Positions 53,581-64,000 of a DNA stretch of 64,000 nucleotides are shown here, piece after piece. The position numbers were made by a program, and so were the translations under genes. The stretch's first letter is position 1, and each line of letters begins with the position of its first letter. The notes under the pieces are model-generated. The model was not told where the DNA came from and ran no database searches. It saw only the letters and a list, made by a program, of their open reading frames with translations. Origin of the DNA: an uncultured Lachnospiraceae bacterium (lineage in GTDB: Bacteria; Bacillota; Clostridia; Lachnospirales; Lachnospiraceae); assembly GCA_947626285.1 (NCBI GenBank), contig CANQRR010000006.1, positions 1 through 64,000 of the forward strand, in the 5' to 3' direction.

Positions 53581-53678
53581 CGGAAATGGTTTTTTCTGTA
53601 ACGGAATGAAAGATCATTGCGACGCAGCGGATATGGCGGGATGGTCACGGTTTGCCCGCGACGGAAGGAGAAGATGAG

Positions 53679-55181
53679 ATGGAACGCAGATATAAAAGAA
53701 AGGGATTGCTTTGGCTGGGCAGCTTTGTGCTGATCCTGATTCTGGGATTTGCGACGCTGACCTGTACGGCGGGCGCGACGCCGGTCTCCGAGAACGGGGC
53801 GCTTTCAGTCCGGGGAACACATATCGTGAATGCGCGGGGAAACACCTTCCAGATCAAGGGTGTCAGCACGCACGGGCTCGCCTGGTTCCCGGAGTATGTG
53901 TCCAAGGCGGCGTTTCAGGATCTGCGCGACAACTGGGGCGCGAACACGGTCCGGCTTGCCATGTACACGGCGGAGTACGGCGGATACTGTTCGGGCGGCG
54001 ATCAGGCTGCCTTAAAGGCAAAGATCGACGAGGGCGTGAAAGCGGCGACCGATCTCGGCATGTACGTGATTATCGACTGGCATATCCTGAATGATAACAA
54101 TCAGCCGTTCGGCCCTGCGGGACAGAATGCCGCGATCGGATTTTTTACGGAGATGGCGGGCAAATACAGGAATCACAACAATGTGCTCTACGAGATCTGC
54201 AATGAGCCGACCAGCGCGAATGGGGGAAGCTGGGGCAACATCAAGGCCTACGCGAATGCGGTGATCGGGGCGATCCGCCAGATCGACGGCGACGCGATCA
54301 TCATCGTGGGCACGCCTACCTGGTCGCAGGATGTGGATGTGGCGGCGCAGAGTCCGCTCTCCGGGGGCAATCTGGTGTACGCCCTGCATTTCTATGCGGG
54401 GACGCACAAGGAATCCTACCGGCAGAAGGCCGCGACGGCGATACAGGCCGGATTGCCTCTGCTTGTGAGCGAATTCGGCATCTCCGACGCGTCCGGAAAC
54501 GGTTCTCTGAACACTTCGGAGGGCAATAAATGGATCAGCTTTCTGAACCAGCATGGGATCGGCTACGTGGCGTGGAATCTCTCCAACAAGAACGAGTCCA
54601 GCGCGCTTTTGAAGAGCAGCGTGAAAAAGACCTCCGGCTGGAGCCTGTCGAATCTGAGCAAGTCCGGGAAGTGGCTGGTGAAGAAATACGGCGGAAAGCT
54701 TTCGGGGAAAGCCGCGGATACATCGACAAAAAAGAAGAGTTCCAAGAAGACGACGACTGCCAAAAAGACAACGTCGAAAAAGACGACGGCCAAGAAGACA
54801 ACGGAGAAAACAACAAAGAAAACAAGCGCCAAGACGTCTTCCAAGACGGTGAAGGCGACGGCAAAGAATGCCAAGGCGAGCGTACAGGTGACCGGCTCTT
54901 GGTTTGACGGGCAGCGCTATTATACGCAGTACAAGCTGACAGTTAAAAACAAGAGTAAGAATAAGCTCTCCGGCTGGAAGGTGAAAGTGAAGTTTCAAAA
55001 CGCGGTCCAGCAGTCCGGCGACTGGAACGGCAAATATACATTTAAGAGCAATACGATCGTCATCAAGCCGGTATCCTACAATAAGAAGATCGCCGCGAAA
55101 AAGTCTGTGACGGACATCGGGTTTATCGTGAGTTCGGCGGTGCCGGATAACAAAGTAGTGTCGGCGAAGGTTGTAAAGTAG
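53679..55181 (+). CDS. Secreted GH5 cellulase with CBM2-like domain
   Basis: A 500-residue extracellular enzyme. A signal/anchor helix (about 9-30) precedes a GH5 barrel (about 38-340) with acid/base E176 in YEICNEPTS and nucleophile E265 in LVSEFGISD, typical of GH5_2 endoglucanases. A Lys/Thr-rich linker (about 337-395) with repeated KTTxKK words follows, then a C-terminal domain (YTQYKLTVKNKSKNKLSGWK, VTDIGFIVSS) resembling CBM2, which binds cellulose. I start it at 53679, 8 bases after GGAAGGAG; the frame extends to 53652. It would attack cellulose or beta-glucan outside the cell and feed the importers. The strongly basic linker is unusual. Confidence 0.9.
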   Translation: MERRYKRKGLLWLGSFVLILILGFATLTCTAGATPVSENGALSVRGTHIVNARGNTFQIKGVSTHGLAWFPEYVSKAAFQDLRDNWGANTVRLAMYTAEYGGYCSGGDQAALKAKIDEGVKAATDLGMYVIIDWHILNDNNQPFGPAGQNAAIGFFTEMAGKYRNHNNVLYEICNEPTSANGGSWGNIKAYANAVIGAIRQIDGDAIIIVGTPTWSQDVDVAAQSPLSGGNLVYALHFYAGTHKESYRQKAATAIQAGLPLLVSEFGISDASGNGSLNTSEGNKWISFLNQHGIGYVAWNLSNKNESSALLKSSVKKTSGWSLSNLSKSGKWLVKKYGGKLSGKAADTSTKKKSSKKTTTAKKTTSKKTTAKKTTEKTTKKTSAKTSSKTVKATAKNAKASVQVTGSWFDGQRYYTQYKLTVKNKSKNKLSGWKVKVKFQNAVQQSGDWNGKYTFKSNTIVIKPVSYNKKIAAKKSVTDIGFIVSSAVPDNKVVSAKVVK

Positions 55182-55198: not shown

Positions 55199-56575
55199 TC
55201 AGGAAACTGTGGAAAAAGGAAGCGAGACAGTGAAGGTCGCCCCTCCGCCCGGCGTGTCGGAGAGGGCGATCTTTCCGTGATGAAGGCGCGCGATCTCCTG
55301 CGCGATGCACAGACCCAGGCCGAAGTGCGACTTGTCCGTGCGGGAGCGGTCGAGCCGGTGAAAGCGCTCGAAGACCGCCTCTTTCTGATTGTCCGGGATG
55401 CCGGGGCCGTTGTCGCTGACGGTGATGCGTAGACAGCCTGTACGTTTTTTATATTTAGGCTTTGCGGTTCCTGTAATCGTTTGTCCGGAGCGTGAGCAAT
55501 TGTTAGGAGCGGTTTGATGGTCAAAGGACAGCGCGAGACGGACCAGGCCGCCGGACGGGGTGTAGGAGAACGCATTCTCGATCAGGATCGAGAGGAGCTG
55601 GCGGATGCGTTCCTCGTCACAGACACAGTGCGGCACGGGGTCGTCGGGCAGCGAGATTTCCCAGCGCAGACCGCGGGAGGCCGCCACGGGCTCAAACTGT
55701 TCCCAGACCTGCAGAAGCAGCGTGTCCGCTTCGACCTCAGAGGGACGGATCGACCAGCTGTGATTATCTGCGCCCGCGAGCTGCAGCATGTCTGTGATGA
55801 GCCGGGACATTCGGTTTCCTTCGGAATCGATCACGTCGAGAAAATGAGAATTGTTCTCCATCGCGCCGTTTCGGACGGCGGCGACATTGCTCAAGATCAC
55901 GGTGAGCGGCGAGCGCAGCTCATGTGAGGCAGATGCGACAAACTGCATCTGCTTTTTTCTGTTCTCAATGAGCGGTCGGAGCATGCGCTTCGTGAAACAC
56001 CAGAAGAAGACGCCGAGCAGCGCGAGCGCGGCAAGGTCTGCGAGCAGAAACGCAAGGCGCTGCCGCAGAATACGTTTCTCCATTTGAGAGAGCGGCTGCA
56101 GCACGGTGACGCCGATGTATCCGTTGTCGCGAGGGATCAGGCCGACGGAGGCGTTGTAATGTTCTCTGCCGTAGGTCAGGGGAAATTCCTCGTAGCGCGT
56201 CAATACACTGAGCGTGCCGGGATCCTGCAGATCAAGGCCGTAGGTTTCAAGCGCCTTTGTTCCCGCCGCGGCCCACAGCTCTTCGGGAACGGCCGCCTCA
56301 TCCAACTCCTGAAAAAAGAGCGGCGTGCCGTTGTCGGTAATCCGCAGGAAGAACTGATGGTTGTGCTCCATCTGCCGGACCCAGGTGTGGGACAGGGAGA
56401 TCTGCTGTTCCAGGTTGTGGTACATCGTGTCGAGGCTCGCGAGGAAGGAAGAATGTTCCTGAGCGCGGATGACAGATTCGGAGATGTACAGGCAAATACA
56501 CGAAAGGACCGCGAGGACAAGCGCGGTGATCGCGACGCACAGGGCGGTGAGCTGGAGGTGGAGTTTGCGGAACAT
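55199..56575 (-). CDS. Sensor histidine kinase
   Basis: A 458-residue membrane kinase with helices at about 11-32 and 173-194 enclosing an extracytoplasmic sensor of about 140 residues. A short HAMP-like segment leads to the HisKA box ASHELRSPLTVI with H218, then HATPase_c motifs (N box IENAFSYTPSGG, G1 DNGPGIPD, G2 GLGLCIAQE). The extracellular part has no named fold that I recognise. It partners the response regulator 12 bases upstream in the same operon. Its promoter is shared as a mirror image with the divergent binding-protein fusion, so that protein may be its input or output. Confidence 0.92.
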   Translation of the reverse strand: MFRKLHLQLTALCVAITALVLAVLSCICLYISESVIRAQEHSSFLASLDTMYHNLEQQISLSHTWVRQMEHNHQFFLRITDNGTPLFFQELDEAAVPEELWAAAGTKALETYGLDLQDPGTLSVLTRYEEFPLTYGREHYNASVGLIPRDNGYIGVTVLQPLSQMEKRILRQRLAFLLADLAALALLGVFFWCFTKRMLRPLIENRKKQMQFVASASHELRSPLTVILSNVAAVRNGAMENNSHFLDVIDSEGNRMSRLITDMLQLAGADNHSWSIRPSEVEADTLLLQVWEQFEPVAASRGLRWEISLPDDPVPHCVCDEERIRQLLSILIENAFSYTPSGGLVRLALSFDHQTAPNNCSRSGQTITGTAKPKYKKRTGCLRITVSDNGPGIPDNQKEAVFERFHRLDRSRTDKSHFGLGLCIAQEIARLHHGKIALSDTPGGGATFTVSLPFSTVS

Positions 56576-56587
56576 AGGCGGGCTCCT

Positions 56588-57265
56588 TTAAGTATTAGAG
56601 TGTAGCTGGTACCCGACGCCGCGCACGGTGCGAAGCTCGACGGTGCTGCCGACGGAGTGAAGGCGGCGGCGCAGGAAGTGGATGTAGTTGTCGAGGTTGC
56701 CTTCCTCGATGTCGGCGTCGGGACCCCAGACGCGCAGCAGGATCGTTGCGCGGGGAATCGTCTGCCCGGTGTTCTGCAGAAAGAGCAGGAACAGGTCGCC
56801 TTCGCGGCGCGAGAGCGTGCAGCTGCGATCTCTGCATTGCAGAAGATTCTGTTCCGGCCGGTAAGTGAGGTCTCCGAAGGCAAGCCCGCGCGCTTCGGTC
56901 AGACGCTGCGGACGGCGGCTGATGCAGCGGATGCGCGCCATCAGTTCCTCAAACGCGAACGGTTTGACGATGTAGTCGTCCGCCCCGCAGTCTAGCCCGT
57001 CGATCCGCTCGTCGAGGCTGCCGAGTGCCGTCAGAAAGATGACAGGAACATTCACATGCTGCTTCCGGGCGAGCCGCAGCACTTTCATGCCGTCCATCTC
57101 GGGCAGCATGCGGTCTAAGAGCACCAGGTCGTGCGCGTTTTCCAGAAGATAAAACAGCCCCTCTTCGCCGTCGTGCGAGACCGTCACATCAAAGCCCTGC
57201 TGTTCCAACATGGATTGCAGCGAGCAGCATAGTTCCTTGTCGTCCTCGATCAGCAGTATGCGCAT
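56588..57265 (-). CDS. OmpR-family response regulator
   Basis: A 225-residue regulator. The receiver domain (1-120) has phospho-acceptor D51 in LVLLDRMLP, the acidic pair EDD at 7-9 and the conserved Lys in VKPFAFEELMARI. The winged-helix output domain (about 128-225) carries the CTLSRREGDLFLLFLQNTGQ and LDNYIHFLRRRLHSVGSTVE blocks. First gene of the two-gene operon with the kinase. It likely binds the TTAGAG direct repeats in both divergent promoters (57333-57349 and 57376-57392), regulating itself and the importer-like operon. Confidence 0.94.
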   Translation of the reverse strand: MRILLIEDDKELCCSLQSMLEQQGFDVTVSHDGEEGLFYLLENAHDLVLLDRMLPEMDGMKVLRLARKQHVNVPVIFLTALGSLDERIDGLDCGADDYIVKPFAFEELMARIRCISRRPQRLTEARGLAFGDLTYRPEQNLLQCRDRSCTLSRREGDLFLLFLQNTGQTIPRATILLRVWGPDADIEEGNLDNYIHFLRRRLHSVGSTVELRTVRGVGYQLHSNT

Positions 57266-57316: not shown

Positions 57317-57349
57317 AGTATAACATAATAGTCTCTAAACTTTCTATAA
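57317..57349 (-). promoter_or_regulatory. Two-component operon promoter with regulator direct repeats
   Basis: On the minus strand TTATAG (57349-57344), 5 bases, TTAGAG (57338-57333), 10 bases, TATACT (57322-57317). It matches the opposite-strand promoter at 57376-57408 in every spacing. Confidence 0.75.
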
Positions 57350-57375
57350 AATGCAAAAAACAATTTTCCCCGAAC

Positions 57376-57408
57376 TTAGAGCAAATTTAGAGACAGGTAG
57401 ATTACACT
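57376..57408 (+). promoter_or_regulatory. Binding-protein operon promoter with regulator direct repeats
   Basis: TTAGAG (57376-57381), 5 bases, TTAGAG (57387-57392), 10 bases, TACACT (57403-57408). The 11-base repeat period is typical of OmpR-family binding sites; no -35 is present beyond the repeats. Confidence 0.78.
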
Positions 57409-57446
57409 GACTGAGAAAATGAAAACATTCAACAGGAGGTCGGGAT

Positions 57447-59786
57447 ATGGATAAGAAAAGAAGGGGTTTTTGGAAAAAGTGGTGCGCGGGCATTTCCGCG
57501 GTCTGCCTCGCGGTGACCGGGGCGCTCGCGGGCGGCCTGCCGGGAGGTATCGTCCGGAGTTTGCCTGATGGTCTGGCGGAAGCTCTGCCTGCGGAGCTGG
57601 CCGGGAATGTGCCGGGGAGCGTGGCGCACGCCGAGGAAGGCGACGTTGCGATGGGGCGTTACCTTGAGTCGGAGCTTGCCATGCCGGCGGAGGATTTCGG
57701 ACCTCTGGACATCGTGCGGACAGCGGAAGGAACGCTGCGGATGCTCGGGGTGGGCGACAACGGCTATACGATCTGGGACAGCGCGGACGGCGGCGTGAGC
57801 TGGGAGCAGACCGGCGCATTTCCGGAGGAATACGCGAAGAAGTTGTTCTATGATATTGACCTAAACCCCATGGGCGGGGGAGTCGCATCGGGATACGAAG
57901 CAGCTGAGGAGAGCGAATTACAGAATTATCTGATCGCGTTTGACGCGCAGGGCAATGTGACGGCGAGGCGGGATGCCGACAGTTCTTATACAATGGATTT
58001 TGCGCAGGACGGGAAGCTGATCGGGATGGAACCAGGGGGCGACGTCCTGGTGTTTGACCCGGAGACCGTAGAGAGCGGCAGCACGATCGCCAGCGGCGCG
58101 GATATGATCGGAACTTGCGGGGAGGAAGCGCTGGTACTCATGGCGTCGCAGCTGCAGCGCTACGACATCGCGAGCGGTGAACCGCTTGCGCGCGACGAGC
58201 CGCTTGAGGAGGCGCTGTACGCGGGAGGTCCGTCCAGAGGCATGTATACGATCTCGTCGACCACGTCTGTGCCGATTGTGATGGCGGAGGATGAGGAAGG
58301 ACGGCTGTACTACGGCACAGGGGACGGAATCTTCGCGCATGCGATGGACGGAAGTATCGTGGAACAGGTCGTGGACGGCACTCTGGGGACACTTGCATCA
58401 CCGTCGACCTTTCTCTGCGCGATGGCGGTAGCGGATCAGTGTTTCTATCTGGTTTGTTTCGATGACGCGGAACACAAGCTGCTGAAATATGAGTATTCCG
58501 CGGATACCCCGAGCGTACCGCAGAAGGAGTTAACGATCTATTCGCTGACGGAGCAGAGCGAGCTCCGGGAGGCGATCACGCTGTTCCAGAAAAAGTATCC
58601 GGATATTTATGTGAATTATGAGATCGGCATGAGCGGGGAGGACGGCGTGACAGCCTCCGACGCGCTGCGCACGCTGAACACGGAGATTCTGGCGGGCAGC
58701 GGTCCGGATGTTCTTGTGCTGGACAGCTTGCCGGTCGACAGCTATGCAGAACAGGGACTTTTGACGGATCTGAGCGGAATCGTCGCCGAGCTGCGGGACA
58801 GTGAAGGACTGATGGACAATGTGCTCGGCGCGTATGAGCAGGACGGCGCGTTCTATGCGCTTCCGCAGCGTTTCGGCATCGTGATGGCGGCGGGAAAGCC
58901 GGAACTCATAAGCGGCATCGACGGCTTTGACGCGATCGAGGCGCTTGCCGCGCGGCAGGGGACGATCTCGTCGTTTACTATTTTTTTCCTCCCGCAGCTT
59001 CTCTACCGCGTCAGTGCCGGCGCATGGAAGAATGAGGACGGAACGCTGGATCAGGAGAAACTGGCGCAGTACGTACACGCGGTCAGACAGATCACGGAGA
59101 CATGGAAGGCGAACGCGTCACAGGAGGAAGTGGAAAAACTGGGTATGCTTCAGCAGGACGAAATGTACGACTGGAATGCGGAGGAACAGATGTTGGGAAT
59201 GAAGGGCGACGACCTGATGTATTCCATTATGGATCTGCTTATGGGCGATTGTGCGTTCTATCCGGGCGCGCTGTATCGGATAACGGATTACTGCGGCCTG
59301 ACCTCCGTAAATAAACAAAACGGCGACTGCGCGGTGGCACTGCCGAATCTGTCGGAGGAAAAATTCTTTGTTCCGTGCGGATTGCTCGGCATTCTGGGCA
59401 CGTCAAAGGAGCCGGAACAGGCGGTGGAGCTTGTGAAGTTCCTGCTCTCGGCGGAGACGCAAAAGCAGATATCCAGCGATGGTTTCCCGCTGAACCGGAC
59501 TGCGCTGGAAGACCGGATCAATACGGATTCGCTCGGGGACGGTTTTGGAGTTTACAGCGGCGATGAGGAAGGAAATATGTTTGGTCTTGAGTATGAGTGG
59601 CCGACGGATGTGGAGCGTGAAGCGCTGATGGCGATGGCGCAGCAGGTGAGCGTGCCGGTCGAGACGGAGCGCGTGCAGCAGGACGTGGTGATCGAGGAGA
59701 TGCAGCGCTGCCTGAGCGGGGAGACGAGCGAGGACGAGGCAGTGAACGCGATCATGCAGCGGATCAACCTGTATCTGGCGGAGTAA
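57447..59786 (+). CDS. Propeller-solute-binding-protein fusion
   Basis: A 779-residue secreted or anchored protein with a signal segment (about 1-30, then a Gly/Pro-rich stretch to about 60 ending SVAHAEEG). Residues 65-360 show repeated short strands with DG turns (TLRMLGVGDNGYTIWDSADG, GRLYYGTGDGIFAHAMDGSI) like a beta-propeller. Residues 361-779 form a family-1 solute-binding protein: KELTIYSLTEQSELREAITL, GSGPDVLVLDSLPVDSYAEQ, then VELVKFLLSAETQKQISSDG. No lipobox cysteine is seen at the signal end. It leads an operon with two permeases and is controlled by the divergent two-component promoter. I know no characterised protein with this order. Ligand unknown. Confidence 0.82.
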   Translation: MDKKRRGFWKKWCAGISAVCLAVTGALAGGLPGGIVRSLPDGLAEALPAELAGNVPGSVAHAEEGDVAMGRYLESELAMPAEDFGPLDIVRTAEGTLRMLGVGDNGYTIWDSADGGVSWEQTGAFPEEYAKKLFYDIDLNPMGGGVASGYEAAEESELQNYLIAFDAQGNVTARRDADSSYTMDFAQDGKLIGMEPGGDVLVFDPETVESGSTIASGADMIGTCGEEALVLMASQLQRYDIASGEPLARDEPLEEALYAGGPSRGMYTISSTTSVPIVMAEDEEGRLYYGTGDGIFAHAMDGSIVEQVVDGTLGTLASPSTFLCAMAVADQCFYLVCFDDAEHKLLKYEYSADTPSVPQKELTIYSLTEQSELREAITLFQKKYPDIYVNYEIGMSGEDGVTASDALRTLNTEILAGSGPDVLVLDSLPVDSYAEQGLLTDLSGIVAELRDSEGLMDNVLGAYEQDGAFYALPQRFGIVMAAGKPELISGIDGFDAIEALAARQGTISSFTIFFLPQLLYRVSAGAWKNEDGTLDQEKLAQYVHAVRQITETWKANASQEEVEKLGMLQQDEMYDWNAEEQMLGMKGDDLMYSIMDLLMGDCAFYPGALYRITDYCGLTSVNKQNGDCAVALPNLSEEKFFVPCGLLGILGTSKEPEQAVELVKFLLSAETQKQISSDGFPLNRTALEDRINTDSLGDGFGVYSGDEEGNMFGLEYEWPTDVEREALMAMAQQVSVPVETERVQQDVVIEEMQRCLSGETSEDEAVNAIMQRINLYLAE

Positions 59787-59934: not shown

Positions 59935-60801
59935 ATGCGGCGGAGGCGGGAGAAAAAGAAGGACAAACGAAAGAAGGATTTTGCGGGAGTTTTGTTCCTA
60001 TTGCCCGGTTTCGCCGGGGTCGTCTGCTTCACGCTGCTGCCGTTCGCGGAGGTGATAAAGAGATCCTTTCAGAGTGCGGTCACGGCGAAGTGGGTCGGCT
60101 GGACGAATTACATGACGGTATTCACAAACACGGCGTTCCGGATGGCGGCGATGAACACGCTGCGCTTCACCAGCGTCTGCATTCCACTGCTGGTGGCGCT
60201 CTCGCTTGTGCTTGCGGTCGTCCTGCAGAAGCTGCGCGCCGGGAAGAACCTGCTCAAGAGTATGCTTCTGATCCCGGTAGCGGTGCCTGCCGCATCCGTC
60301 GTGCTCGTCTGGAAGGTGTTGTTCCATTCAAACGGGCTGCTCAACGGCCTGCTTCTGAAGCTCGGCGCGCAGAAGGTCGGCTGGATGACAAGCGGCGCGG
60401 CGTTCTCAGTGTTGGTCGTCAGCTACCTCTGGAAGAACCTCGGCTACGACATGATCCTGTGGCTGGCCGGACTTGCCGGGATTCCGGAAGACATCTACGA
60501 GGCGGCGCGCGTCGACGGGGCGGGCGAGTGGAAGTGTTTCACGCGGATAACGATCCCGAATCTTCTGCCGTCCCTGTACACGATCACGGTGCTGTCCTTC
60601 CTCAACTCGTTTAAAGTGTTCCGCGAGGCGTGGCTGGTCGCCGGGGATTACCCGCACCAGAGCATGTACCTGCTTCAGCACCTCTACAACAACTGGTTCC
60701 GCGAGTTGTCCTTCGACAAGATCTCGGCGGCCGCGGTCGTCAACGCGATCGTGGTGCTGGCGCTGATCCTCGTGCTGAGGCGAAGCTGGGAGAGGGAGTA
60801 G
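59935..60801 (+). CDS. Sugar-type ABC transporter permease (MalF-like)
   Basis: A 288-residue permease with six hydrophobic segments and an EAA loop, IYEAARVDGAGEWKCFTRIT. The N-terminus is strikingly basic (Arg/Lys in most of the first 17 positions) before the first helix FAGVLFLLPGFAGVVCFTLL. GGAAGG lies before the ATG. It follows the propeller-binding-protein gene by 148 bases. The operon has no ATPase up to the window end. Confidence 0.9.
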   Translation: MRRRREKKKDKRKKDFAGVLFLLPGFAGVVCFTLLPFAEVIKRSFQSAVTAKWVGWTNYMTVFTNTAFRMAAMNTLRFTSVCIPLLVALSLVLAVVLQKLRAGKNLLKSMLLIPVAVPAASVVLVWKVLFHSNGLLNGLLLKLGAQKVGWMTSGAAFSVLVVSYLWKNLGYDMILWLAGLAGIPEDIYEAARVDGAGEWKCFTRITIPNLLPSLYTITVLSFLNSFKVFREAWLVAGDYPHQSMYLLQHLYNNWFRELSFDKISAAAVVNAIVVLALILVLRRSWERE

Positions 60802-61050
60802 AAAGGATGCTATACAGCTATACTTTGGAAAAGTGAAAAAGGGCGCAAACAGTATCGGAGGGGCGGACGGATAAAGTCTGATATGACATGAAAAACAAAA
60901 AAATATGTAAAGCAGTGTATGGAAAGTGGATGAAGAGCAGACGAACGGAATTGGAAAACAGGCAATTAGACAATTTTGAAAGAAAGGGTCTAGCAAACAA
61001 CCGGCATTAGGAACGGCAATCAGAGAATTATGAAAGAAAAGGAGCAGCGG

Positions 61051-61902
61051 ATGACAAAAAAATTTGTGAGGGGAATTACATACCTGCCGCTGATCCTGCT
61101 GGCCGGGGTCATCTGCTTTCCGATGCTGTTCGCAGCGACGGGTGTGTTCATGCAGCAGTGGGAGCTGGAGGATTATCTGGCTCCGGTGCTCGCGGGCGCG
61201 GATGGGATGGCGAGCTGGCCGCTGCTGCCGCACGCGCCGACTCTGCGTTCGCTCGTGGAACTTTTGTTAGACTCACCACAGTTCTTCGTGATGTTCTGGA
61301 ATTCTCTGAAGATTTCTCTGTGCATCCTGATCGGACAGACAGTGTTCGGCGTCCCGGCGGCGTGGGGACTGGCGCGGTTTGAGTTTCCGGGGAAGCAGGC
61401 GGTTCTTCTGTTGTATATCGTGTTGATGCTCATGCCGTTTCAGGTGCTGATGTTGCCGCAGTATCTCGTGCTGGATCGATTCCGCTTGCTGGACACGCAC
61501 GCGGCGGTGATCCTGCCGGCCGTGTTCTCGACGTTCCCGGTGTTCATCATGTACCGCTTCTTCTGTGGGATCCCGGAGGCGATCCTCGAGGCGGCGCGCA
61601 TCGACGGGGCGGGGCATTTGCAGATTTTTTTTCGGATCGGGATTCCGCTCGGGGCGGCGGGCATCGTGTCCTCCGGCATTCTGGGTTTTCTGGAATCGTG
61701 GAACATGATCGAGCAGCCGATGACGTTTCTGAAGACAAAATCGCTCTGGCCGCTGTCGCTGTTTTTGCCGGAGATCGGATTGGCGGAGGTTGGGCTGGGA
61801 TTCGCGGCGGCGTTTATGATGCTGGTGCCGGCGCTGCTTCTGTTTCTGAGCGGGCAGGAGTATCTGGAGCAGGGCATAGCGGCGGCCGCGTTGAAGGAAT
61901 AA
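61051..61902 (+). CDS. Sugar-type ABC transporter permease (MalG-like)
   Basis: A 283-residue permease with six helices and an EAA loop, ILEAARIDGAGHLQIFFRIG. It ends LEQGIAAAALKE, like MalG-type permeases. I start it at 61051, since AAAAGGAG lies 6 bases upstream; the frame extends to 61030. It is separated from the preceding permease by about 250 bases of AT-rich sequence (60802-61050) without an evident gene, longer than usual for such pairs. Confidence 0.9.
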   Translation: MTKKFVRGITYLPLILLAGVICFPMLFAATGVFMQQWELEDYLAPVLAGADGMASWPLLPHAPTLRSLVELLLDSPQFFVMFWNSLKISLCILIGQTVFGVPAAWGLARFEFPGKQAVLLLYIVLMLMPFQVLMLPQYLVLDRFRLLDTHAAVILPAVFSTFPVFIMYRFFCGIPEAILEAARIDGAGHLQIFFRIGIPLGAAGIVSSGILGFLESWNMIEQPMTFLKTKSLWPLSLFLPEIGLAEVGLGFAAAFMMLVPALLLFLSGQEYLEQGIAAAALKE

Positions 61903-61998: not shown

Positions 61999-64000
61999 AT
62001 GAAGAATGGAAAACTGGTGCGGATCACAGCAATATTTTTTGCGCTCATGCTGTGCTTCACGATCCTGTCGCGCGCGGCGGATCAGCTGAGCGTCGCGGTG
62101 GTGAAGACGGAGCGGCCGCAGAATCAGATGATTGAGCACGTGGTGAAAGCGTCGGGGAGAGTTGTGCAGAATCAGGAGCTGGCGGTGACGACGCTGCCGG
62201 ACCAGCGCGTGACGGCGATCTATGTGCGCGAAGGACAGCGTGTGGCGAAGGGAGACCTGCTCTTTGAAGTCGATACAACGCTGCTTGAGGAGAAGATTCT
62301 GGACCAGCAGCAGGAGATGGAGAAACAGGAGCTGCTGGTGAAGGACGCGAAGAGTCAGAAGGAAGTCAGCGCTCAGCAGAGAGCAAATTCGCAGGCGCAG
62401 GCTGCGGAACAGTATTCGCTGTCGACCAGGCAGGCCGGAGTACAGCTTTCACGGGCGAAGCAGCAGCTGGACGAGGCGAAGAAGAAGCTAAAGAAATTCA
62501 GAAAGTCTGCGGAATCCGGAAAGTCCAGTGGAAGTGAGAAAAAGGATTCCGAAGTTGAGGACGCGCTTTTGCAGGCGCTGCAGGAGAAGACGGACGCCTA
62601 TGTCGCGGCGCAGGGGGAGTTGCGCGCGCTGGAATGGGAGATTGAGAACGCGGTCTACATGGCGAAGCAGGACGCGATGGCAGGAACGACAGCCGGAACA
62701 ACATCCGGGATGACAGCAGGAGCAGTGCAGGGAGCGACGTCCGGGACGGGATCCGGGGATGCGGCGGAGGCGACTTTGACAATGGAAGAAAAAACATTTA
62801 CAGGGTCAGCGGAAGACGTGGATGAAGCAGGAACGTCGACGGACACAGGGGAAGGGGCGGAAGTCACGCCGCAGGAGGTTGATGAGGGAGATGCTGAGAT
62901 CGTGCCGGAGACGGTCTGCGAAGATGAGACGTTTGCCGACGATGCAATCGTTGATTCGATCAGCGCGTTGCCGGGAGATGAGATTGATCTGGATCTGGAG
63001 ATTGAGAGTGTGAGCAGTGAGAGCACAGATGAGCAGGGAATGGGTGACGGTAGTACAGGGGATCTGGGCGTAAATGTCAGTGGAGGAATTGATCTGGGTG
63101 GCAATGATGGAGAAGAAACTGATACGGACGCTGGAATCGGAAATGTGGCGGATTCGGATCTTGACGTGAGCGGGAGTCCCGTTGGTTCCGATCTGAATGC
63201 AAATATCAAGGATGCGGGCGATCTGTATGCCGGAGAGTTGATCGTGGATGATGTTCAGGATGCGGTTCTCCCGCGGATGCCCACGCCGGAAGAGTTGACG
63301 CAGATTGAGCAGACGGTGCGCGCGAATTACAGCGGGCAGCTGGCGGAGGCACAGCAAAAGCTGAGCGACGCGCAGGCGGAGAAGGAAGCTGCGGAAGCGG
63401 CGCTTGTGAAGTACCAGCAGGAGCAGCTGGCAGCGGACAATTCGGAGAACGCTCAAACTGCGCAGCAACTGGCGGAGGCTGTGAAGGCTGCACAGCAGCT
63501 GTACGAGGACGCGGCGCTCGCGGCGAACGAGGCGGCGGTGACTTCGGGCAGGGCGGTGGCGACGGCGAACATTGCCGACCCCTCAAACAGTTCGGACCGC
63601 ATGAACGAGATCACCTACGAACAGATGGAGCTGACGCTTGAAAAACTGGAGGGGTTGAAGAAGGCGAAGGGAAAAGTCTGCGCGGAGGCGGACGGCCTGA
63701 TCACGAAGATCAACGTGATGACCGGGGAGAAGACGTTGGATACGACCGCTCTTCTGATGGCGGATCTGTCGAAAGGGTACCGGTTCACGGCGGACATCAC
63801 GAAGGAACAACAGAAATACATCGGCACGGGCGACCTGGTCAGTTTAAGTTCCGGGGACGGCAAACAGAAGCTGGAGGAGCTGCCGGTGGAGTCGGTTGCG
63901 GCGGATGAGAGCGACGAGAACATTTATCATGTGACGGTTCAGCTCCCGGAGGACAGCTTTGCGATCGGCGCGACGGTGAACCTGGATTTCAGCCGGAAGT
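61999..64000 (+). CDS. Membrane-fusion (HlyD/adaptor) protein, partial at window end
   Basis: At least 667 residues; the frame is open at the window end. One transmembrane helix (about 8-27) leads to a first half-lipoyl motif (VTAIYVREGQRVAKGDLLFE), a coiled coil (about 95-223), a 200-residue acidic, Gly/Thr/Asp-rich low-complexity stretch (about 223-423), a returning coiled coil (about 425-530), a second half-lipoyl motif (KGKVCAEADGLITKINVMTG) and a beta-barrel region. This is the layout of an ABC efflux adaptor. I list ATG 61999, preceded by GGGAGGGGAG, but TTG 61930 with AAGGAG is also in frame and adds MLQENLESLESLESSESRRE and a few residues. Partner genes probably lie to the right. Confidence 0.82.
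   Translation, partial: MKNGKLVRITAIFFALMLCFTILSRAADQLSVAVVKTERPQNQMIEHVVKASGRVVQNQELAVTTLPDQRVTAIYVREGQRVAKGDLLFEVDTTLLEEKILDQQQEMEKQELLVKDAKSQKEVSAQQRANSQAQAAEQYSLSTRQAGVQLSRAKQQLDEAKKKLKKFRKSAESGKSSGSEKKDSEVEDALLQALQEKTDAYVAAQGELRALEWEIENAVYMAKQDAMAGTTAGTTSGMTAGAVQGATSGTGSGDAAEATLTMEEKTFTGSAEDVDEAGTSTDTGEGAEVTPQEVDEGDAEIVPETVCEDETFADDAIVDSISALPGDEIDLDLEIESVSSESTDEQGMGDGSTGDLGVNVSGGIDLGGNDGEETDTDAGIGNVADSDLDVSGSPVGSDLNANIKDAGDLYAGELIVDDVQDAVLPRMPTPEELTQIEQTVRANYSGQLAEAQQKLSDAQAEKEAAEAALVKYQQEQLAADNSENAQTAQQLAEAVKAAQQLYEDAALAANEAAVTSGRAVATANIADPSNSSDRMNEITYEQMELTLEKLEGLKKAKGKVCAEADGLITKINVMTGEKTLDTTALLMADLSKGYRFTADITKEQQKYIGTGDLVSLSSGDGKQKLEELPVESVAADESDENIYHVTVQLPEDSFAIGATVNLDFSRK

Follow-up and report, generated by a model that had tools for sequence, protein, structure and literature searches.

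The DNA between a two-component system and a transport operon on this contig raises the question of which regulator acts on the two divergent promoters that it contains, and whether these form one joint device or two separate ones. We approached it by comparing the 64,000-nucleotide stretch analysed here (the window) with the rest of its genome and with genomes related at the level of genus, family and order. An earlier note on this DNA had described the same architecture on both strands, a hexamer repeat followed by a -10 element, and its letters and spacings are exactly as given there (Table 1). The two units, each 33 bases long, lie head to head with 26 bases between them; both operators contain a direct hexamer repeat of 11-base period, as in OmpR-type tandem-repeat operators, and in both the downstream hexamer stands 10 bases from the -10 element, which is the CiaR-type layout.

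Two probable operator-promoter units and their flanking genes

Table 1. Positions of the operator-promoter units, their elements and the neighbouring genes (RR, response regulator; HK, histidine kinase).
Feature	Position	Strand	Family or basis
RR-side unit, TTATAG-aaagt-TTAGAG-actattatgt-TATACT	57349-57317	minus	
Upstream half-site TTATAG, RR-side operator	57344-57349	minus	sequence
Downstream half-site TTAGAG, RR-side operator	57333-57338	minus	11 bases from TTATAG
-10 element TATACT, TG-extended (TGTTATACT), RR-HK operon promoter	57317-57322	minus	sequence and promoter scan
Binding-protein-side unit, TTAGAG-caaat-TTAGAG-acaggtagat-TACACT	57376-57408	plus	
Upstream half-site TTAGAG, binding-protein-side operator	57376-57381	plus	sequence
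Downstream half-site TTAGAG, binding-protein-side operator	57387-57392	plus	11 bases from first TTAGAG
-10 element TACACT, binding-protein operon promoter	57403-57408	plus	sequence
Sensor HK, 458 aa, HisKA and HATPase_c	55199-56575	minus	Pfam
RR, 225 aa, receiver and winged-helix output domain, OmpR/PhoB type	56588-57265	minus	PF00072, PF00486
Binding protein, 779 aa, SBP_bac_1 domain from about residue 360	57447-59786	plus	PF01547
Permease 1 (BPD_transp_1)	59935-60801	plus	PF00528
Permease 2 (BPD_transp_1)	61030-61902	plus	PF00528
HlyD/RND-adaptor-like protein	61999-64000, on to contig position 64257	plus	Biotin_lipoyl_2, RND_mfp
Membrane protein, 423 aa, after the adaptor gene	contig 64314-65585, beyond the window		no family match

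The RR matches both of its domain families above cut-off (PF00072, E 6.1e-27; PF00486, E 3.3e-15) and aligns over its full length with solved OmpR/PhoB regulators; its receiver residues E7, D8, D51, T79 and K101, which we take to be the acidic pair (E7/D8), the phospho-acceptor aspartate, and the threonine and lysine of the receiver, are the same in all 20 RRs aligned. The HK appears to carry an outer domain of about 130 residues, placed by eye from two hydrophobic stretches, for which a scan of 15 homologues gave no convincing Pfam match, and the best 25 of 98 NCBIfam models for the RR and the best 25 of 71 for the HK all score under their cut-offs. GGAGG at 57435-57439 precedes the binding-protein start and GGGGAGG, read leftward at 57279-57273, the RR start; the leaders would be about 32 bases long on the binding-protein side and about 45 on the RR side. 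Convergent with the HK gene lies that of a GH5 cellulase with a CBM2 domain (53652-55181), a homologue of which is found at the same place in loci L101 and L103.

The plus operon runs from the binding protein through both permeases and the adaptor to the membrane protein and contains a CUT1-like importer set (PF01547 with two PF00528). Pfam recognised no ATPase gene among these five genes, and none was seen by eye among the ORFs of at least 120 residues up to contig position 78000. The adaptor matches Biotin_lipoyl_2 barely above the cut-off, and RND_mfp at E 3.5e-11 yet below it. The binding protein had been described as a fusion, a reading that is clear for its C-terminal solute-binding domain but not for the N-terminal half, where only weak PQQ/BNR propeller-type matches were obtained, in few homologues (PQQ_2 in 2 of 18, best E 4.8e-5). 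Among relatives with TTAGAG-type sites, the importer-type permeases are 70-96% identical and share an operon with the HlyD/RND-like adaptor and the membrane protein that matches no family; with no ATPase gene recognised, this make-up of the transporter is possibly unusual. The binding proteins diverge much more than the permeases, and loci L035, L036 and L108 have two fused binding-protein copies near a single permease set.

The pattern TTAnAG-N5-TTAGAG-N10-TAnACT has two exact matches in the whole assembly (3,731,860 bases, 147 contigs, 97.6% complete), both at this locus, and a reversed-pattern control has none in the same assembly. With up to three mismatches the genome yields 22 matches versus 52 for the reversed control, which leaves the remaining 20 within background; the window itself holds two such matches versus 0.10 expected, and 0 of 100 dinucleotide shuffles reach two or more. 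These counts, together with conservation in relatives, uphold the earlier claim that identical spacing on opposite strands is unlikely by chance. The contrary explanation, by which the repeats are accidental or simply part of an A+T-rich divergent promoter region that the relatives share through recent ancestry, gains from the fact that the pattern was defined after the sequence had been viewed, which leaves rarity alone as weak evidence, and from the shared descent of the relatives; independent evidence comes from conservation in those relatives.

A profile of 35 sites from this and related genomes ranks the two units first and second in the genome, at 33.0 and 27.9 bits, with 150 scored among 814 first-look candidates. 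The third match (19.6 bits) precedes a gene read by eye as ribF-like and is probably due to chance, and one of 15.2 bits sits between genes read by eye as trk-like. With no convincing third site among the 150 of 814 candidates scored, a wider regulon was rejected.

Conservation in the genus and the family

Of the 98 genomes searched, 52 contain the binding protein at E<=0.001, and this search gave 30 loci (L003-L032, L003 being the window itself), in 16 of which, the window's included, the RR and binding-protein genes are divergent. A pattern search of these 16 recovered both sites in ten, the binding-protein-side site only in three and neither in three; the last three have weaker sites by a position matrix built from these same sites. 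With a held-out matrix, trained solely on 12 sites from six close loci, 24 of 26 remoter regions upstream of RR and binding-protein genes outscore all of their 300 dinucleotide shuffles, the two misses being binding-protein homologues of 28-29% identity; L010, L017, L025, L030 and L006 (a near-copy of L005) stood outside both training and test. In these six loci, none of the 12 hexamer columns varies on either side, whereas of the 45 columns just upstream two are invariant for the binding protein and four for the RR, the sites having been located by a pattern that fixes most hexamer letters and that six of six loci matched. The upstream half-site of the RR side reads TTATAG in the closest loci and TTAAAG, TTACAG or TTAGAG in remoter ones.

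The 5- and 10-base spacings, on whose persistence in close relatives the earlier note had let its reading depend, are kept there, while the gap between the operators varies: 26 bases in the window, it spans 24 to 489 in 12 other measured loci (L005/L006 and L029/L030 are near-copies among the 13). The two units are therefore independent, and cooperation across the mirror image, a term that suggests one joint unit, was rejected as a requirement. In six of the 12 other loci the gap is at least 320 bases, and in five of these six the extra DNA holds a small holin-like ORF (it is unmatched in G028). These ORFs, of 26-27 residues, hydrophobic and placed between both promoters of five close relatives, lie at L004:4167-4244 (-), L005:1017-1094 (+), L007:4263-4343 (-), L008:1652-1732 (-) and L114:2824-2901 (+); the two that were scanned match Hol_Tox just below the cut-off, and the insert is possibly a type I toxin-antitoxin unit. 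Rfam gave no match for two relatives carrying the inserted segment, and the Hol_Tox-like ORF pattern is absent from the window. Loci with the insert keep both operators intact, one on each side.

At the family level, at least 49 of 299 genomes have an RR homologue at E<=1e-58; the survey comprised 92 RRs and 90 distinct upstream regions, after removal of one near-identical region (91 to 90) and with L107 left out as a repeat of L100. TTAnAG pairs at a spacer of 5 are present on the RR strand of 62 of the 90 regions, versus 2.7 in shuffles, and on the opposite strand of 45, versus 3.1, and each of the other spacers from 0 to 15 accounts for at most 15 regions. A -10-like TA...T follows 10 bases beyond the pair in 57 of 65 cases on the RR strand and 35 of 60 on the opposite strand. 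The concentration at spacer 5, unmatched at other spacers, together with the held-out matrix, the contrast between hexamer and flank columns and the expectation of only 0.10 matches in the window, tells against chance or inherited A+T-rich DNA, whose probability we put close to nil.

The binding-protein side was examined in 60 family loci outside the genus set, 42 with a divergent binding-protein gene in the fetched flank and 18 without. A reverse-strand site scoring at least 11.5 is present in 26 of 42 of the former and 0 of 18 of the latter (Fisher p 2.5e-6, although the loci are related by descent, so that counts and p-values overstate independence), and the contrast persists at thresholds of 12 (20/42 vs 0/18) and 12.5 (15/42 vs 0/18); at 11.5, RR-side sites are found in only 28 of 42 and 13 of 18. 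We consider this the clearest indication that the binding-protein side is controlled through such sites. Coordinate control of the binding-protein operon, as the earlier note had predicted, is favoured by this contrast and by the separate copies of the site that accompany displaced pieces of the operon.

Such pieces are seen among genus genomes. The full order of binding protein, permease, permease, adaptor and membrane protein, with HK-RR divergent, is found in L113, L114, L115, L116 and L118, and in the sister locus L112 the operon opens with the permeases and closes with the binding protein. A separate contig carries permease 2, adaptor and membrane protein in G012 and G025, where permease 2 comes first and has a site of its own, as does the adaptor gene of G002. 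The RR of G016 and that of G011 are kilobases from the binding protein, yet keep their site, and so does the RR of G009, a genome in which the binding protein was not found.

Across 47 genus genomes, the motif profile matches in at least 29 (E<=0.01) and an RR of at least 64% identity is present in 28; the two co-occur in at least 27 of these 28 genomes, and the motif is found in at least 2 of the 19 others, all counts from genome-wide searches being lower bounds since misses are possible. Profile sites were drawn from 22 of the 28 RR genomes, the window's own included, for which the result is not independent; of the six outside training, five have the motif (G043 is a near-copy of training genome G041 and G026 of G036, and the G025 match is weak), and the sixth, G037, misses it and has a weaker site by position matrix (L013). 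G002 combines the motif with a kinase fragment and G018 has a weak motif match, an RR of this group being found in neither. Upstream of the 28 RRs themselves, the score of a matrix trained on some of them exceeds 20 in 21, is weak in two, and reveals no site in four, the remaining RR having too short an upstream sequence.

In G006, G007, G029 and G046, the RR lies on a different contig from the binding-protein gene, has no binding-protein gene in its fetched flanks and no site upstream, and the binding-protein genes still have sites, partly with up to four in-phase repeats. The autoregulation predicted by the earlier note is favoured by the comparison, the RR-side site being kept in relatives, but in this clade autoregulation looks to have been lost, judging by the upstream DNA. 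Before the binding-protein genes of loci L020, L024 and L028 stand as many as four TTTAGAGA-like half-sites, phased at 11 bases, and the RRs of these genomes are encoded on other contigs and lack a site.

Half-site letters and the recognition helix

Half-site letters and recognition-helix residues were tallied for 91 RRs with enough upstream DNA. TTAGAG accompanies N193 with R200 in 52 of 62 RRs (eight without a site, two other), and N193 with K200 in 4 of 13 (eight without a site, one TTAGAA, in L166). All four with N193 and N200 have TTAGAC. The 11 with T193 have TTAAAG, TTTAAG or TTTGAG in ten cases and no site in one, and TTAGAG in none; as TTAAAG is also one half of some N193 sites, beside TTAGAG, the T193 class is defined by its lack of TTAGAG. 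Exceptions occur: TTAGAG stands with S193 in L174 and L198, a residue that one of the 91 RRs has, and the site of L154 (T193, N200) is weak, its second half, TTTGAG, still ending in G, against the residue-200 rule. Genomes G003, G012 and G043 each hold a TTAGAG-type RR together with a 52%-identical TTAGAC-type RR.

An order-level set of at least 32 RR matches, from which six already used and two without a locus were left out, gave 24 further RRs. TTAGAG was predicted for the 17 with N193 and R or K at 200, of which 12 agree, three disagree (TTAGAA in L195 and L196, only a poor site in L188) and two have no site; for the other seven, whose residues differ, the rule makes no prediction. The 24 include no further RR with T193 or N200, so the set covers the common class only. 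Upstream of one order-level RR with alanine at 193 (L202) stands TTTCAG-N5-TTTCAG-N10-TATAAT (score 11), with the same spacing and a different half-site. On the tree, residue 193 differs in two independent pairs on well supported branches (five on the best tree), and the sites change concordantly in nearly all and oppositely in none, numbers too few for significance; of two pairs for residue 200, one agrees and one has no difference.

Our hypothesis is that the half-site letters vary with the recognition helix, with few independent changes behind it and with exceptions. A broader proposal, which we hold as tentative and somewhat doubtful, is of a family-wide module whose operators have diversified with the helix, residue 193 setting base 4 (Asn for G; Thr, or Val as in CiaR, for A) and residue 200 helping to set base 6 (Arg or Lys for G, Asn for C), so that a one-base change would insulate the paralogues of G003, G012 and G043 at fixed spacing and layout.

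These comparisons also bear on whether both operons answer to a different regulator, be it an OmpR-type paralogue of this RR or a one-component protein. The genome has 51 RR-like candidates at a first look and OmpR-type operators resemble one another, but the sole two strong genome sites found adjoin this two-component system, the motif and this RR co-occur across genomes, and the half-site letters appear to track this RR's helix, all of which makes a different regulator very improbable. As originally proposed, the RR encoded beside the sites is the regulator that co-occurrence and helix covariation favour, and the operators are very probably docking sites for the bacterium's own RR.

A candidate circuit and its relation to known systems

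We consider it highly likely, from the sequence comparisons above, that a tandem RR dimer occupies the -35 position of each unit and that the phosphorylated RR activates both promoters, that of the RR-HK operon and that of the transport operon. This is the best explanation because the sites are exact and rare, both spacings are conserved, the sites are linked to the RR and transport genes, and the helix covaries with the half-site. The HK would phosphorylate the RR, a step we presume to be needed, and a head-to-tail RR dimer would bind each tandem repeat, filling the -35 position, where the downstream half-site stands 10 bases from the -10 element, and contacting RNA polymerase in lieu of a -35 box. 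Leftward, the RR would activate its own RR-HK operon in a positive feedback, and rightward the operon of binding protein, two permeases and adaptor, with the two operators acting independently of one another; the kinase signal is presumably linked to the ligand of the binding protein.

The promoters themselves differ. The RR-side promoter joins its extended -10 (TGTTATACT) to a -35-like TAGAAA at 18 bases (9 of 12 positions overall) and may have some basal activity; the binding-protein-side promoter, at whose TACACT the promoter scan reported no sigma-70-like pair, has no extended -10 and no -35-like hexamer, and should therefore depend more on the RR. Of the 35 profile sites, 23 have an extended -10, and the best TTGACA match at the -35 position averages no higher than in shuffles; it reaches 4 of 6 in nine sites (15% of shuffles do as well or better) and 5 or 6 in none.

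Activation has been assumed so far, and the same RR could instead repress one or both promoters, a negative autoregulation in which the bound repeat blocks polymerase near the -10 element. That binding beside a -10 element can block polymerase too, that the RR-side promoter might fire unaided on its extended -10 and TAGAAA, and that nine of 35 sites retain a 4/6 match at -35 would all fit repression. CiaR-activated promoters, however, are laid out in this way, their repeat ending 10 bases before the -10 element, and an average -35 match no better than in shuffles points the same way, so that we regard repression as unlikely and retain activation as the preferred reading.

Both the parts and the plan of this circuit have precedents. 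An 11-base direct repeat at the -35 position is characteristic of PhoB with its pho box and of class-II OmpR/PhoB activators, and the placing of a two-component system beside a divergent transporter operon, each side having its own sites, is a general design. The present RR has the receiver and winged helix of PhoB-type activators in common with them and differs in half-site, signal and target genes; from the divergent design at large it differs in its binding protein and two permeases with a HlyD-like adaptor, an ATPase gene not being seen in the operon.

The closest likeness in spacing is to the CiaRH system of Streptococcus, whose CiaR-activated promoters read TTTAAG-N5-TTTAAG-N10-TATAAT (PMC3091779), with the same 5-base hexamer spacing and 10-base distance to the -10 element as here. 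S. pneumoniae has 15 CiaR promoters, some driving small RNAs (PMC3091779), whereas two strong sites were found in our genome. CiaR combines the half-site TTTAAG with the helix VVEVYVSKVRKKL, and the present RR TTAGAG with GNLDNYIHFLRRRL, which places these sites outside the CiaR regulon proper; in our own alignment of the published helix, CiaR has Val at the N193 position and Lys at the R200 position. M. tuberculosis PhoP binds as a tandem head-to-tail dimer to direct repeats of 11-base period, with three and four repeats bound still better (PMC4832192). The 11-base direct repeat is the same as here, and the multi-repeat binding compares with the four-half-site arrays of L020, L024 and L028; PhoP differs in its seven-base TCACAGC motif and unrelated regulon. 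A search of the full-text literature, judged on titles and abstract openings and with most subscription journals outside its reach, found no publication on this system.

Comparison of related genomes thus links an uncharacterised gut-bacterial kinase-regulator pair to a DNA code and a small regulon of its own, with its RR as the likely regulator, and the same wiring, itself of a classic design, recurs in many related genomes; the search for the same repeat beside this kinase-regulator pair, which the earlier note had suggested, did find it there. The paralogous pairs are natural variants of RR helix and operator at fixed geometry and are suited to the question of how OmpR-family regulators change their DNA specificity without cross-talk. 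The transporter would be expected to have its expression set by a sensor kinase of its own, a link that may aid the search for its substrate.
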